Assembly (NCBI GenBank): GCA_017555205.1
Contig: JAFZGW010000025.1
Coordinates: 1-36,753, forward strand
Direction of reading: 5' to 3'
Source of the DNA: Akkermansia sp.
GTDB lineage: Bacteria > Verrucomicrobiota > Verrucomicrobiia > Verrucomicrobiales > Akkermansiaceae
Length of the DNA stretch: 36,753 nt
The notes beneath the pieces are model-generated. The model saw only the letters and a program-made list of their open reading frames with translations, was not told where the DNA came from and searched no databases. Position numbers and translations under genes: made by a program. Shown piece by piece: positions 170 to 36,744 of this stretch (position 1 is the stretch's first letter; every line of letters starts with the position of its first letter).

Positions 170-198
170 TTGCCAAGCAAAGGGAATTATGCTAGACT
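170..198 (+). promoter_or_regulatory. sigma70-type promoter of menF, probably leaderless
   Basis: TTGCCA at 170-175, a 17-nt spacer and TAGACT at 193-198. Only six bases separate the -10 box from the ATG at 205, so transcription should begin at the start codon itself. No Shine-Dalgarno is visible. The box match is moderate (5/6 and 4/6), but spacing and position repeat at other genes here. Confidence 0.55.
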
Positions 199-204
199 GG
201 GCGC

Positions 205-1242
205 ATGCAGATGCCGTATGCAGACAGAGTAGATGCCTTGTGCAGGCGGCACTGTGCCTTTGCGCTCTATGCGCTACCGGGAGATACTGAGCCGCACTTC
301 TGCATGGCGACAGATGGCCGAACGGAGCAAGATTTCATTTTCAGCAACGGATTTATACTGGCGACCTTCACTGGGCAGCAACTCTTCATCCCGGCGGAAT
401 TAGATGAACCGCCTGCGGCAGACGCTTGGCCGGAGCTACAGCAAGAGCCACTGCAAGCAGCAACCAAGCGTGAGGAATATGCCGCTAAGTTTAAACTCTA
501 TACGGATTTTATACGCAACGGGCAAGTTCGCAAAATAGTATTGGCTCGCACGGAAGATGCCGAGGTAAGGCAAGATTTTTCCCCCGTGCAGGCATTTCTG
601 CAAGCATGCACCAACCGCCCGGAGGCCTTCAAAGCGCTCGTACATACCCCGCAACACGGCACTTGGCTATTCTGTACACCGGAACTGCTCATAACCGGCA
701 GCGACAACGACTGGTACACTATGGCTCTCGCCGGCACACGCACGCCCAGTCAATTGCCATGGGATACCAAAAATCGCCGAGAGCAGGTACTGGTTACAGA
801 ATTCATGCGCGAGGTGCTCACGCCGCTGACCGACGAAATCAACGAAAGCGAACCCGAAAACCTGCGAGCAGGCAATATCGAGCACCTTTGTACCCGCTTT
901 CACCTGCGCATGCCCCCGGGCCGCCTGCTACTACTGCTGGACCAACTACCCCCTACTCCGGCCGTCTGCGGCTCGCCCGTAGAGGCTGCGCGTAAACTTT
1001 TGCTCACCTACCCCGATATTGACCGCTCATGCTATGCCGGCTACCTAGGGCCATGGGGCAAAGGCGAAGTTCATCTCTACGTTGCTCTGAGGTGCATGCA
1101 GATTTTCCCAGGCTTCTGCCGACTGTATGCCGGCGGTGGACTTATGCCCGACTCAGTCGAAGAGAGCGAGTGGCAGGAAACCGCAGCAAAAATGCAGACC
1201 ATGAGGGCGCTGCTGCACAATTTTCTTCCTACGTCAACTTGA
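205..1242 (+). CDS. menF: isochorismate synthase (MenF/EntC family)
   Basis: A 345-residue chorismate-utilising enzyme, most likely converting chorismate to isochorismate for menaquinone synthesis. The visible family signatures are KIVLAR (K110, position of the catalytic base), LAGTR (175-179), EHL (226-228), PTPAVCGSP (250-258), DRSCYAG, and a C-terminal metal-binding stretch with EESEWQET (319-326). The length fits MenF/EntC/DhbC rather than the longer TrpE or PabB. One oddity is that the usual His before PTPAV is Pro249. The start at 205 is supported by a -10 box six bases upstream. The gene appears monocistronic: 138 bp separate it from the copper ATPase, and no other men gene is in view. 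A siderophore role cannot be excluded but has no local support. Confidence 0.85.
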   Translation: MQMPYADRVDALCRRHCAFALYALPGDTEPHFCMATDGRTEQDFIFSNGFILATFTGQQLFIPAELDEPPAADAWPELQQEPLQAATKREEYAAKFKLYTDFIRNGQVRKIVLARTEDAEVRQDFSPVQAFLQACTNRPEAFKALVHTPQHGTWLFCTPELLITGSDNDWYTMALAGTRTPSQLPWDTKNRREQVLVTEFMREVLTPLTDEINESEPENLRAGNIEHLCTRFHLRMPPGRLLLLLDQLPPTPAVCGSPVEAARKLLLTYPDIDRSCYAGYLGPWGKGEVHLYVALRCMQIFPGFCRLYAGGGLMPDSVEESEWQETAAKMQTMRALLHNFLPTST

Positions 1243-1380
1243 GCTGCTACGGTTTCCTCGCCGGTTCAGGGCCCCTCTTCTAATTGCCCGATTTTTTGTA
1301 CTGAGCTTCCGCCAGCATGACAACAATTAACCTTTCCCAACTCAGCAAAAACCGTACAATAAAAGTAATTTAACGCAGTT

Positions 1381-3729
1381 ATGCGAGAGGAACAATTCAA
1401 AGTAACCGGCATGAGCTGCTCCGCTTGCTCAGCCAGAGTGGAGCGTGCCGTGGCGGTACTGCCTGGGGTGCAGAGTGTACAAGTAAACCTACTGACCGGC
1501 AGCATGCGAGTACAATTCAGCGTGGAACAGAGCGAGGCCACTATCATATCTGCGGTCGAAGCCGCAGGCTATGGTGCAGCCTTGGCTCAGGGTGCCACCA
1601 CTACGAGAAGCAATGACAGCGGACTGCGCCGCCGATTGGTACTGTCGCTAAGCATTCTGTTGCCGCTCATGGCCATTCACCACCTATGGCATGGCCTGCC
1701 CTCGGCTATCGTGCAGCTCCTGCTGGCGCTGCCAATTCTGTGGCTTAACCGAAAGTTTTTTATCAACGGGCTGAAAGGGGCTCTGAAGGGAGCAGCCAAC
1801 ATGGACACTCTGGTAGCGCTGGGTGCAGGTGCCGCTATGATGGACGGTCTGGCCAATTTCTATTTTGCCCACCGCGGGGCCTATTATTTCGAGTGTGCGG
1901 CTATGATTGTAACACTCATCACCCTGGGCAAATGGCTGGAAAGCCGAGCCACAGGCCGCACCGGCGAAGCACTGGAAAAACTGCTCGCTCTGCTGCCGCG
2001 AACCGCTACTGTTCTGCGAAACGGCACTCCCACCAACATCCCGGCAGACGCTGTGCAAGTAGGCGAAATCGTACTGGTTCGCCCCGGTGAACGCATGCCT
2101 GTGGACGGCACCGTAACTGCGGGCACCTCGGCAGCGGATGAGGCAGCCCTCACCGGTGAAAGTCTACCGGTGGAAAAAACGCCGGGAGCCTGCGTGTATG
2201 CCGGTACAGTAAACCGCAATGGCGCACTGCAAGTACGGGCAGACAAAACAGCGGCGACCAGCGCACTGGCCGACATCGTATCCCTAGTGGGCAAGGCAGC
2301 TGCCACCAAAGCCCCCATTTCTCGCCTGGCCGACCGTATATCGGGCGTGTTTGTGCCAGTTGTCGTGGCCATATCACTTCTGACAGCTCTTACTTGGCTA
2401 TTGCAGGGTGCCGGGGTGGGCTTTGCGCTATCATGCGCCATTGCCGTGCTGGTTATCAGTTGTCCCTGCGCGCTGGGACTGGCCACACCGGTAGCAATCA
2501 TGGTTGGGACAGGACGCGGGGCTGAGTGTGGTATATTGTTCCGCAACGGTACAGCACTCGAGACCGCCCGGCGCGCCACAGCCGTAGTGCTCGACAAAAC
2601 CGGCACCATCACCACCGGTCACCCGGTCGTCACCGATACCTTACCCGCTCCCGCTCACAGCAACGAAGAACTGCTGCAGCTCGCCGTCACCTTGGAGAGC
2701 GGCAGCAATCACCCGCTGGCCGAGGCCGTACTACAGGCCGCAGCAAGTCTTACACCCGAACCTTGCAACTGCTTAACTTACCTACCCGGGAGAGGCATAA
2801 CAGCGAGCATCGGCTCCGTACCCTGTGCCGCCGGAAATGCCGCCCTAATGTCCGAAATAGGCGTAAGTGTCCCCGATGTCGCCGCACTGACCGCAGCAGG
2901 TAAAACCCCGATTTTCTTCGCCCGTGGCAACGAACTCATCGGCACTCTGGCTGTGGCCGACACTATAAAGCCCGAATCACCCGCAGCCATTGCCGCCATG
3001 AAGCAAGCCGGCCTGCGCGTGCTCATGATAAGCGGCGACAACTCCCGCACGGTCCATGCCATCGCCCTACGCGCCGGGGTGGATGAAGTCCATGCCGAAG
3101 CCCTGCCGCAGGACAAGGATGCGCTGGTGCGCCGCCTGCAAGCTGAAGGGCACTGCGTTGCCATGGTGGGCGATGGAATCAACGATGCCCCCGCTCTCAC
3201 CCGAGCCGACGTCGGCATCGCCATCGGTGCCGGCACCGATATCGCCATGGAGTGCGCCGGAGTTATCCTAGTGCGCAGCAATCTGATGGACGCCGTAGCT
3301 GCTCTGCGCCTGAGCCGTGCCGTGCTGCGCAATATACGCCAAAACCTCTTCTGGGCGCTGCTTTACAACTGCTTAGCCATTCCCGTAGCAGCCGGCATTC
3401 TTTATCCCCTCACCGGTTGGCTTCTCCACCCGGCCGTGGCCGCTGCCGCCATGGGGATGAGTAGCCTTTGCGTAGTCTCCAACGCTCTGCGACTGCGCCA
3501 CTTCACCCCCACCCCACAACTCAATATGAACACCATCACCATACATGTAGACGGCATGATGTGCCCCCATTGCGAAAATCACGTCAATAAAGCACTGCTT
3601 GCCATTCCCGGAATCACCGACTGCCACGCCGATTACAAGGCAAAAACCGTCACGATTACCACCTCTCACGACGTTCCGCTCGCTACCATTCACCACACAA
3701 TAACCGAGCTCGGCTATAACATCCTCTGA
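1381..3729 (+). CDS. copA: copper-translocating P1B-type ATPase with N- and C-terminal HMA domains
   Basis: A 782-residue heavy-metal exporter of the inner membrane that uses ATP to expel Cu(I). An N-terminal HMA domain carries GMSCSAC (10-16). Paired membrane helices follow, then the actuator motif TGES (258-261), the CPC metal site in a membrane helix (361-363), the phosphorylation motif DKTGT with Asp405, an SNHPL nucleotide-binding motif and GDGINDAP. After the last helices comes a second HMA domain with GMMCPHC (Cys728 and Cys731), beginning near an internal Met716. The C-terminal domain looks like a CopZ-type chaperone fused to the pump. No copper-responsive regulator or separate chaperone gene is adjacent. 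A possible -10 box TACAAT lies at 1355-1360, but its -35 box is poor. Confidence 0.93.
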   Translation: MREEQFKVTGMSCSACSARVERAVAVLPGVQSVQVNLLTGSMRVQFSVEQSEATIISAVEAAGYGAALAQGATTTRSNDSGLRRRLVLSLSILLPLMAIHHLWHGLPSAIVQLLLALPILWLNRKFFINGLKGALKGAANMDTLVALGAGAAMMDGLANFYFAHRGAYYFECAAMIVTLITLGKWLESRATGRTGEALEKLLALLPRTATVLRNGTPTNIPADAVQVGEIVLVRPGERMPVDGTVTAGTSAADEAALTGESLPVEKTPGACVYAGTVNRNGALQVRADKTAATSALADIVSLVGKAAATKAPISRLADRISGVFVPVVVAISLLTALTWLLQGAGVGFALSCAIAVLVISCPCALGLATPVAIMVGTGRGAECGILFRNGTALETARRATAVVLDKTGTITTGHPVVTDTLPAPAHSNEELLQLAVTLESGSNHPLAEAVLQAAASLTPEPCNCLTYLPGRGITASIGSVPCAAGNAALMSEIGVSVPDVAALTAAGKTPIFFARGNELIGTLAVADTIKPESPAAIAAMKQAGLRVLMISGDNSRTVHAIALRAGVDEVHAEALPQDKDALVRRLQAEGHCVAMVGDGINDAPALTRADVGIAIGAGTDIAMECAGVILVRSNLMDAVAALRLSRAVLRNIRQNLFWALLYNCLAIPVAAGILYPLTGWLLHPAVAAAAMGMSSLCVVSNALRLRHFTPTPQLNMNTITIHVDGMMCPHCENHVNKALLAIPGITDCHADYKAKTVTITTSHDVPLATIHHTITELGYNIL

Positions 3730-35767: not shown

Positions 35768-35901
35768 GATTTTTTGAATCGGGCTATATTATCCCACTCG
35801 GCAGCTGCAGCTACAAAATCGAAAGTAGGCGAACGCAGCGAGGCACAAAGACAGGTCGCGTGACTGCCTAGGCCACAAATCGCACCGGCGCTTGAAATGG
35901 A

Positions 35902-35933
35902 GAAGCCCGCCAAGCTTTAGCTTAGCGGGCTTC
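35902..35933 (-). terminator. second copy of the 5S-associated hairpin
   Basis: Stem GAAGCCCGC/GCGGGCTTC (35902-35910 with 35925-35933), part of the 90-bp direct repeat, 59 bp inside the gap before the next gene's promoter region. The following minus-strand tail is not a strong T-run. Confidence 0.55.
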
Positions 35934-35939
35934 GTGGAT

Positions 35940-35978
35940 CCTGGCAGCTATCTACTCTCGCGGGACCTATCGTCCGAC
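35940..35978 (-). pseudogene. 5S rRNA 3'-end fragment
   Basis: Thirty-nine bases identical to the last 39 of the complete 5S gene at 36630-36744, including the terminal CCAGG side. The rest of the 5S sequence is absent; unrelated hairpin sequence starts at 35979. It is too short to be a working 5S RNA. Confidence 0.85.
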
Positions 35979-36161
35979 AACGAGCCCGACGGCTGTAAGG
36001 GCTCGTGGCCTGAGCGCTCTGCGCGAAGCCCCCGCCCTGCGGGGGTGAGGGTCCGTGGGGCGGACCCGAAGCAACCTGAGAAGATGGTAGGAGGACGCTT
36101 GGAACAAAGCGAACAGCAAGGGCCAATGAGTAAAAACGCAATAATTTAATGCCACTCATTA

Positions 36162-36270
36162 TGCCACCCCTAGACGGGGTTCATTTTGTTTTTATTTCGG
36201 CACCCGGGGTTCCGCCTCTTGCGAGGCTCCACCGCCGGGCTAGCTTATGCCGCCCCTCACCGGGGCTCAT
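36162..36270 (+). repeat. structured inverted repeat, left arm
   Basis: About 105 bp matching the reverse complement of 36450-36551 with scattered substitutions and small gaps. Shared blocks include TGCCACCC, GGGGTTCA, CCCGGGGTTCCGC, GCCGGGCTA-like and TGCCGCCCC. Each arm itself contains short GC-rich hairpins. Confidence 0.8.
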
Positions 36271-36449
36271 GAATGAGGCGGGCATACGCCCGCGGGAATG
36301 CTTAGATGCCTCCCTGCCCCCTATCGCTCGTCATTAATCATAGCAAGCTACCCTACTCCCGAAGCCTGCGCAGCGGGCGAAGGTCTCGGTTAATTGCACG
36401 GGTGCAAGAGAATCACATAGCCCGCGCGAGCACAGCGAGCCTACCCCAG

Positions 36450-36551
36450 AGCCCCGGCGGGGCGGCACAAGGTAGCCCGGGCGTGAAGCTCCGCAAGGAG
36501 CGGAACCCCGGGAAAAAGGATTAAAATAAATGTGAACCCCGGAGGGTGGCA
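36450..36551 (-). repeat. structured inverted repeat, right arm
   Basis: Inverted partner of 36162-36270, about 180 bp apart. Read on the minus strand it gives TGCCACCC, GGGGTTCA, CCCGGGGTTCCGC, GCCCGGGCTACC and TGCCGCCCC in the same order as the left arm. Differences fall partly in paired positions (CCTCTTGCGAGG versus CTCCTTGCGGAG), which preserves the hairpin. Confidence 0.8.
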
Positions 36552-36578
36552 TAAGGCGTGTTTTCAAAACCGCCCCGA

Positions 36579-36668
36579 CGCTTGAAATGGAGAAGCCCGC
36601 CAAGCTTTAGCTCAGCGGGCTTCGTGGGTCCTGGCAGCTATCTACTCTCGCGGGACCTATCGTCCGAC
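36579..36668 (-). repeat. direct repeat copy 2: within 5S rRNA and its hairpin
   Basis: Partner of 35889-35978; includes the 3' 39 bases of the intact 5S gene and the hairpin that follows it. Confidence 0.9.
36592..36623 (-). terminator. hairpin downstream of 5S rRNA
   Basis: Nine-bp stem GAAGCCCGC/GCGGGCTTC (36592-36600 with 36615-36623), six bases after the 5S end. It is probably a terminator or processing hairpin of the rRNA operon; the T-run is weak. Confidence 0.65.
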
Positions 36669-36744
36669 TACCATCGACGTGCTAATGTTTCACTTCCGGG
36701 TTCGGAATGGGACCGGGTGGGACCATCAGGCTATGACCACCAGG
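36630..36744 (-). rRNA. rrf: 5S ribosomal RNA
   Basis: About 115 nt on the minus strand. The 5' CCTGGTGG pairs with the 3' end near CCAGG. The core reads CCCACCCGGTCCCATTCCGA, then ACCCGGAAGTGAAA, then the GATGGTAGT segment and CGCGAGAGTAG, the universal 5S pattern. It is the 3' end of an rRNA operon whose 23S and 16S genes should lie to the right of the window. Confidence 0.95.

Follow-up and report, generated by a model that had tools for sequence, protein, structure and literature searches.

Anatomy of the duplicated 5S rRNA gene end

How does the 3′ end of a 5S rRNA gene come to lie twice in the same orientation, 690 bp apart, when only one of the copies belongs to a complete gene? The arrangement is found near the end of the window, by which we mean the whole 36,753-nt contig JAFZGW010000025.1 of Akkermansia sp. 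GCA_017555205.1 (contig C62 of G000, a draft genome of 70 contigs with a completeness of 84%). A complete 5S rRNA gene on the minus strand (36629 to 36744; RF00001, 83.1 bits, model positions 1 to 120) is the sole Rfam match at the gathering score in the whole window, in which ARAGORN called no tRNA genes. The gene is followed by a terminator-like hairpin recognizable in the sequence (inverted repeat I6, 36592 to 36623, minus strand), and both recur on the same strand as a 40-nt 5S 3′ end (35939 to 35978), identical to the gene at 40/40 positions, with its own terminator-like hairpin (inverted repeat I5, 35902 to 35933). The duplicated end begins at 5S GTCGGAC, which we take to be helix IV in the usual 5S numbering. 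A sequence-only reading of the window had described a 90-bp repeat, 690 bp apart with two mismatches, of which a single copy lay within a full 5S gene, and realignment bears this out: 35889 to 35978 differs from 36579 to 36668 at 2 of 90 positions (35923 and 35938). Its account of the other copy as a 5S 3′ end plus terminator also holds, with the correction that the fragment measures 40 nt, not 39. Ungapped extension in a repeat comparison lengthens the repeat to 105 bp with 6 mismatches (94%) at the same 690-bp spacing, placing the proximal copy at 36567 to 36671 and the distal copy at 35877 to 35981, both on the minus strand. The contig ends 9 nt past the 5S gene, so the assembly could have collapsed further tandem units.

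The stretch between the two copies had been proposed to be one 600-bp element or remnant; it proves to be a composite in which two different repeats are layered. The larger is a MITE-like palindromic element of ∼465 bp (36096 to 36560, ends approximate, no strand assigned), recognized from related copies. Its two inverted-repeat parts, 36153 to 36268 and 36449 to 36560, agree at 74% of positions once one of them is reverse-complemented. The same genome holds a 98% copy on contig C69, broken by the contig end, and 85 to 87% pieces on C11 and C2, while the relative G024 holds an 89% copy; other contigs end inside this repeat. On C2, three related pieces lie around an ORF matching Y1_Tnp (PF01797; 76.1 bits, cut-off 23), a RAYT-like Y1 transposase at L023 3377 to 4333 with MITE-like pieces on both sides. 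Like MITEs of the TIRYT/RAYT type, the element consists of gene-free inverted repeats and has these repeats in common with a Y1 transposase element. Relatives show the 5S arrangement without it, so we infer that it inserted later. A repeat of ∼110 bp is also common to the region behind an empty 5S locus of the same genome (L003 ∼230 to 350) and the flank of the C69 copy (L021 ∼3130 to 3250).

With the MITE-like element set aside, the remaining parts read along the 5S strand as a left arm (CGTCCTCCTACCATC; 36083 to 36097, minus strand), a core of four hairpins (35978 to 36076, minus strand; 88.4 bits with our model R1), and the junction TTGTCGGAC. The left arm is the reverse complement of 5S GATGGTAGTCGGACG except for 2 bases. 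The core is a member of a dispersed repeat family, identified by the model and by covariation, and is fused at a constant base to the 40-nt 5S 3′ end and its terminator.

The core belongs to a dispersed family of hairpin repeats

Model R1, built from 15 copies, found the core in 46 of 76 Akkermansia genomes (E ≤ 0.001, among up to 55 candidates scored per genome under strict filters), with at least 50 copies in each of six genomes and 4 in G000. In a sample of the phylum, 15 of 288 genomes carried it (E ≤ 1e-4, among up to 14 candidates scored per genome): nine Akkermansia, three from other genera of the family, and three that were more distant and weaker. The core thus has the many dispersed, hairpin-forming copies that characterize a dispersed palindromic repeat, REP-like in a broad sense. 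Its loops are largely constant (CCCCA and TTACAGCCGTC) and its stems covary. Compensatory changes affect 13 of 23 pairs in alignment A1 and, among 54 distinct copies, 19 of 23 pairs (238 cells), a pair count biased towards the model because these rows were aligned by it; none of 500 shuffles was as high, on all five measures. In a 10-row MAFFT alignment of the 5S units, 8 of the 15 pairs of stems 1 and 4 were compensatory, a number reached by 4 of 500 shuffles, and the covariation score of these stems was 0.400 versus 0.117 (0 of 500 shuffles).

Three of the four core matches in G000 are joined to the ends of stable RNAs, namely, 5S rRNA (C62), tRNA-Met (C52), and a tRNA-like 3′ half (C4), relatives of which adjoin tRNA-His in G072, G075, and G076; the fourth (C60) lies within an intron-like piece. 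In core-rich genomes, most of the copies inspected have no RNA gene joined to them. Direct repeats of at least 16 nt surround 7 of 38 dispersed copies, counted with a search pattern that missed variants such as the tRNA-Met copy of G003, and at least four of these 7 are pieces of other cores. Two copies (L239 1193 to 1281 and L232 1846 to 1937) seemingly lie within protein-coding sequence, perhaps of a putative RHS-like type.

Filled and empty 5S loci

The core/5S junction pattern was found, at a constant base, at 13 places in 9 of 76 Akkermansia genomes, which include MAGs named Akkermansia sp. from horse feces and water deer rectum; variants of the junction in G072 and G084 fall outside the search pattern. 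The upstream 5S gene, or its end at the contig start, is visible in five of the nine genomes (G000, G011, G019, G076, and G082). The unit begins at or near a contig end in G022, G033, and G075; no full 5S gene lies upstream of the junction on the fetched stretch in these three or in G007, where no 5S 5′ part occurs within 2.2 kb around the junction. The genomes are drafts, whose contigs often break at such repeats.

Across 42 5S loci in 28 genomes, chosen from search matches, an extra 5S 3′ piece was found at 11. Seven are core units (G000 C62, G011 C96, G019 C54 and C38, G076 C65 and C51, and G082 C42), three are short pieces (19 to 22 nt) that adjoin another palindrome (G030 C5, G077 C32, and G079 C38), and one is inverted (G003 C138). 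The other 31 loci lack such a piece, among them G075 C46, where a core stands behind the 5S gene without a 5S piece, and a locus in G015 with no 3′-end match at all. The sequence-only reading had proposed a search for empty sites, and they occur inside carrier genomes themselves: searches with the block and the core left six 5S loci in five junction genomes without either (G000 C1, G011 C85, G019 C28, G076 C52, and G082 C31 and C43). Thus, the 5S loci of one genome differ in whether they carry a unit. At some loci the units are in tandem, with two each at G082 C42 and G076 C65 (the second G076 unit being truncated), and G072 C57 holds four 5S pieces, spaced by 372 to 385 bp and accompanied by truncated cores, the 5S gene being outside the stretch fetched. 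Model R1 had no match in the G072 array or at G077 C32. In several species (L086, L097, L101, L102, L108, and L066), the duplicated 5S 3′ pieces contain or adjoin a second palindromic repeat (CCCGTCTTCGC...GCCGAGGC...), close to CCGCGA/GAGTAG.

Filled and empty loci can in part be matched by their neighboring genes. Five ORFs are common to G000 C1, without a unit, and G076 C65, with two, in the same order and at 86 to 91% identity; a sixth match (56%) was dropped as an overlapping frame on the opposite strand. The common genes begin several kilobases from the 5S gene in G076 C65, and a kinase-like ORF, only 38 to 44% like the kinases behind the window's unit, stands between them and the units, so the two loci do not differ by the unit alone. 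A 219-aa ORF likewise connects the G072 array with two loci that lack the core, G076 C52 (70%) and G077 C73 (80% over 146 aa). By eye, the proximal terminator and tail at G076 C65 (CTCCGTTTCAAGC) are like the units of other species, and the distal terminator is like those at the other 5S loci of G076, a pattern that would follow from insertion or from conversion by another rrn locus. Separately, L003 and window positions 196 to 3726 are syntenic with G076 C65, which suggests that C1 adjoins the left end of the window; two rRNA operons would then face each other ∼47 kb apart.

Similar anatomy at other RNA gene ends

Contig G083 C63 begins inside a 5S gene, which is cut by the contig end, and continues with the 5S 3′ end, a terminator, a perfect inverted 5S piece of 22 nt, a core (88 bits) that points the opposite way, and another 5S end with its terminator; the direct repeat of end and terminator spans 69 bp (94%). 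Another 5S end of this genome (G083 C95) and G003 C138 have an inverted 5S piece without a core match. An inverted 5S 3′ part behind the terminator, with no core match, was seen at L104 335 to 375 and L261 90 to 120.

tRNA-Met loci show similar anatomy. The corresponding junction pattern was found in 7 of 76 Akkermansia genomes, once with a mismatch, and in all seven a tRNA-Met gene lies just upstream and a core is present. The direct repeat in G003 measures 65 bp (98%) and, as at 5S, includes the terminator. Given the G083 and tRNA-Met cases, there was likely more than one founding event.

Probable entry of a hairpin element at the 5S 3′ end

On balance, and with appreciable reserve, we think that the 3′ end of a 5S gene received a small hairpin element devoid of genes, an event that duplicated this end and the terminator while sparing the gene. 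The general suggestion of the sequence-only reading, insertion at an RNA gene 3′ end with duplication of that end, finds support in the 5S unit, the empty loci, G083, and tRNA-Met. In an ancestor, an element of the core family would have entered the 5S 3′ end, with end and terminator duplicated and the 5S gene left whole. Hairpin-directed template switching or single-strand insertion, and not a tyrosine integrase, is the probable route by which the left arm and core joined the gene. Recombination between the 5S 3′ ends that flank the resulting cassette then likely carried copies of it to other rrn loci and built up tandem units. At some later time, and in the lineage of this genome, the separate MITE-like element likely inserted between terminator and core, lengthening the unit to 690 bp. 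Exchange between rrn loci and repeated insertion at one target would leave the same products, and the spread of the unit could also be explained by old inheritance with loss.

Pairing of the left arm and a possible role as RNA

Over a longer stretch, the window's left arm matches the inverted 5S sequence at 16/20 positions. When seven arms were compared, across the junction, with the reverse complement of their own genome's 5S, each matched at 13 to 16 of 20 positions (16/20 for the arm at G019 C54). Two differences (GA to TC) are common to 9/9 arms. A bolder reading, to which we grant an outside chance, is a new class of enzyme-less, RNA-like mobile elements that target the 3′ ends of stable RNA genes. 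Such an element would consist of a four-hairpin core and an arm complementary to the target across the junction (GATGGTA/GTCGGACG at 5S and TTCGA/CCCCGCCGG at tRNA-Met, the slash marking the junction); it would insert, restore the 3′ end and terminator, and use host or transposon enzymes in trans. In 5 of 6 genomes (G003 being excluded for its unclear arm), pairing of the tRNA-Met arm with the displaced copy is at least as good as with the working gene. We read the arm as a stretch of the target that was inverted in the course of insertion and perhaps retained by selection, and not as a proven guide.

The unit may instead be a working RNA gene, which we regard as unlikely. Its chimeric transcript would have core hairpins and arm in place of the 5′ two thirds of 5S rRNA, the arm clamping the helix IV strand; it might draw off the partners of 5S rRNA as a decoy or provide the rRNA operon with a second terminator. 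Besides the covarying stems and constant loops of the core, pairing of the arm points in this direction: across the alignment, 75.6% of cells in the arm and the 5S-derived strand are paired, a level that none of 500 shuffles reached (70.0% in shuffles), and the left and right flanks of the same unit outpair mismatched ones in 10 units (1 of 5,000 permutations; 11 units were given and one was dropped for its short flank, and the ten include two partial units that have another arm). Several results argue against it, however. No more than three arm pairs are altered on both sides, a number that 41 of 500 shuffles also reach; the own 5S variant is the best partner for 4 of 8 left arms, assuming one own variant, and the arm in the window pairs better with the variant of another species. 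The clamp forms in the minimum-energy fold of only 2 of 9 units, the window's unit is broken by 465 bp, and dispersed core copies without a 5S part show the same covariation. As a separate matter, a closing helix was rejected for the dispersed copies as a whole, where the flanks of 42 copies paired no better than mismatched ones (4,948 of 5,000 permutations were as good or better), and likewise for 10 intron-like copies (3,513 of 5,000).

Unlikely alternatives: decay of a second gene, site-specific integration, and assembly

The fragment might also be what is left of a tandem second 5S gene, its 5′ part having been replaced by repeats and only the 3′ end and terminator surviving. The fragments of G011, G019, and G082 do bear bases special to the 5S genes of their own genomes, a point in its favor. 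Nevertheless, the junction falls at the same base in nine genomes and none of the 42 5S loci has a second 5S 5′ part, so the decayed second gene that the sequence-only reading had named as its counter-case is unsupported; the similar anatomy at tRNA-Met speaks against it as well, and we rate it very unlikely.

Another candidate is the remnant of a larger integrative element of the phage or IME type whose tyrosine integrase attached it at the 5S 3′ end, which the data lead us to consider highly improbable; the sequence-only reading had likened the footprint to that of integrative elements at tRNA genes. Several features of integrase-type elements are present, as in the elements that target tRNA genes: the 3′ end of the target gene is directly repeated at both ends (105 bp, 94%), the target is intact, both in the window and at tRNA-Met (where the gene was called in 7/7 genomes), and insert-free sites exist among paralogous loci, the six named above. 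Set against these, the unit holds no site-specific integrase gene, only mechanically called ORFs of at most 89 aa overlapping it, and the content between the repeats is two layered repeat families with many other copies. Larger elements bounded by the same repeat, for which a search had been suggested, did not appear among the loci fetched, in an unsystematic look.

An assembly artefact at a contig end, which the position of the 5S gene at the edge of C62 and the ending of other contigs within the MITE-like repeat would allow, is scarcely credible when the same junction appears in the assemblies of other species, including the named MAGs from horse and water deer.

If the insertion of a hairpin element is the correct reading, palindromic repeats that are usually deemed passive intergenic litter can mimic integrative elements at 5S and tRNA genes while having no integrase of their own, and an rRNA operon can host a cassette capable of tandem multiplication. 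How hairpin DNA inserts and duplicates gene ends could then be tested within a single genus, by means of its filled and empty 5S and tRNA-Met loci. Such repeats may also contribute to the breaks behind rRNA operons in Akkermansia draft assemblies.

Comparison with known systems

A search of the open-access literature, including passages of PMC3733652 and PMC12306157, returned no account of such units at 5S ends or of this Akkermansia repeat, which is no proof of absence. Transposase genes of the RAYT type flanked by terminal inverted repeats are described in PMC3733652 (TIRYT/TIRtron), and the arrangement on C2 resembles them. The MITE-like element at 36096 to 36560 shares with these systems its long inverted parts and the related pieces that flank a Y1 transposase gene in the same genome; it differs in having no internal gene, and its mobilization by that Y1 enzyme is hypothetical. 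The same source includes a GTAG or CGTC tag at one end in the definition of REP-type repeats.

The likeness of the core to domains of group II introns is that intron-like pieces of relatives contain it. One such piece adjoining the core scores 29 or 24 bits with RF02001 (group-II-D1D4-3), under the gathering score of 32, and no intron family matched at gathering score in the window or in a further search. A search for a core enzyme, limited to reverse transcriptases (RTs), linked none to the core: RVT_1 (PF00078) had no match in G000 and matched in 5 of 20 genomes searched, and the core was at 0 of 7 RT-bearing loci of the genus. Neither domain V (in the window, at the Rfam gathering score) nor an RT gene (in G000, with RVT_1), either of which would mark a group II intron, was found. 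We rejected a core within an active group II intron on the weak RF02001 scores, the RT loci without a core, and the failure to recognize an RT ORF nearby by motif and by eye. The intron-like pieces, which are ∼250 to 300 nt long and contain the core (L140, L141, L143, L148, L149, and, on C60 of the window's own genome, L144), start with GTACGACC (GTGCGACC in L149), mostly right after terminator-like T-runs, and resemble the 5′ part of a group II intron; no RT ORF was recognized near them, and L140, L143, and L149 seemingly share an end point.

Comparable in form are REP and BIME repeats and the Rickettsia palindromic elements, which like the core are short, hairpin-forming, dispersed, and often clustered. 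The core differs from them in its length of ∼95 nt, its four hairpins with constant loops, and the fusion of some copies to 5S or tRNA 3′ ends. A further comparison is with another group, the integrative elements at tRNA 3′ ends, which duplicate their attachment site. The 5S unit departs from that group in having no integrase or other genes, in a repeat that includes the terminator, in an insert that is a palindromic repeat, and in its 5S target; it agrees with it in the direct repeat of an RNA gene 3′ end flanking the insert, the intact gene, the tandem copies, and the insert-free loci.
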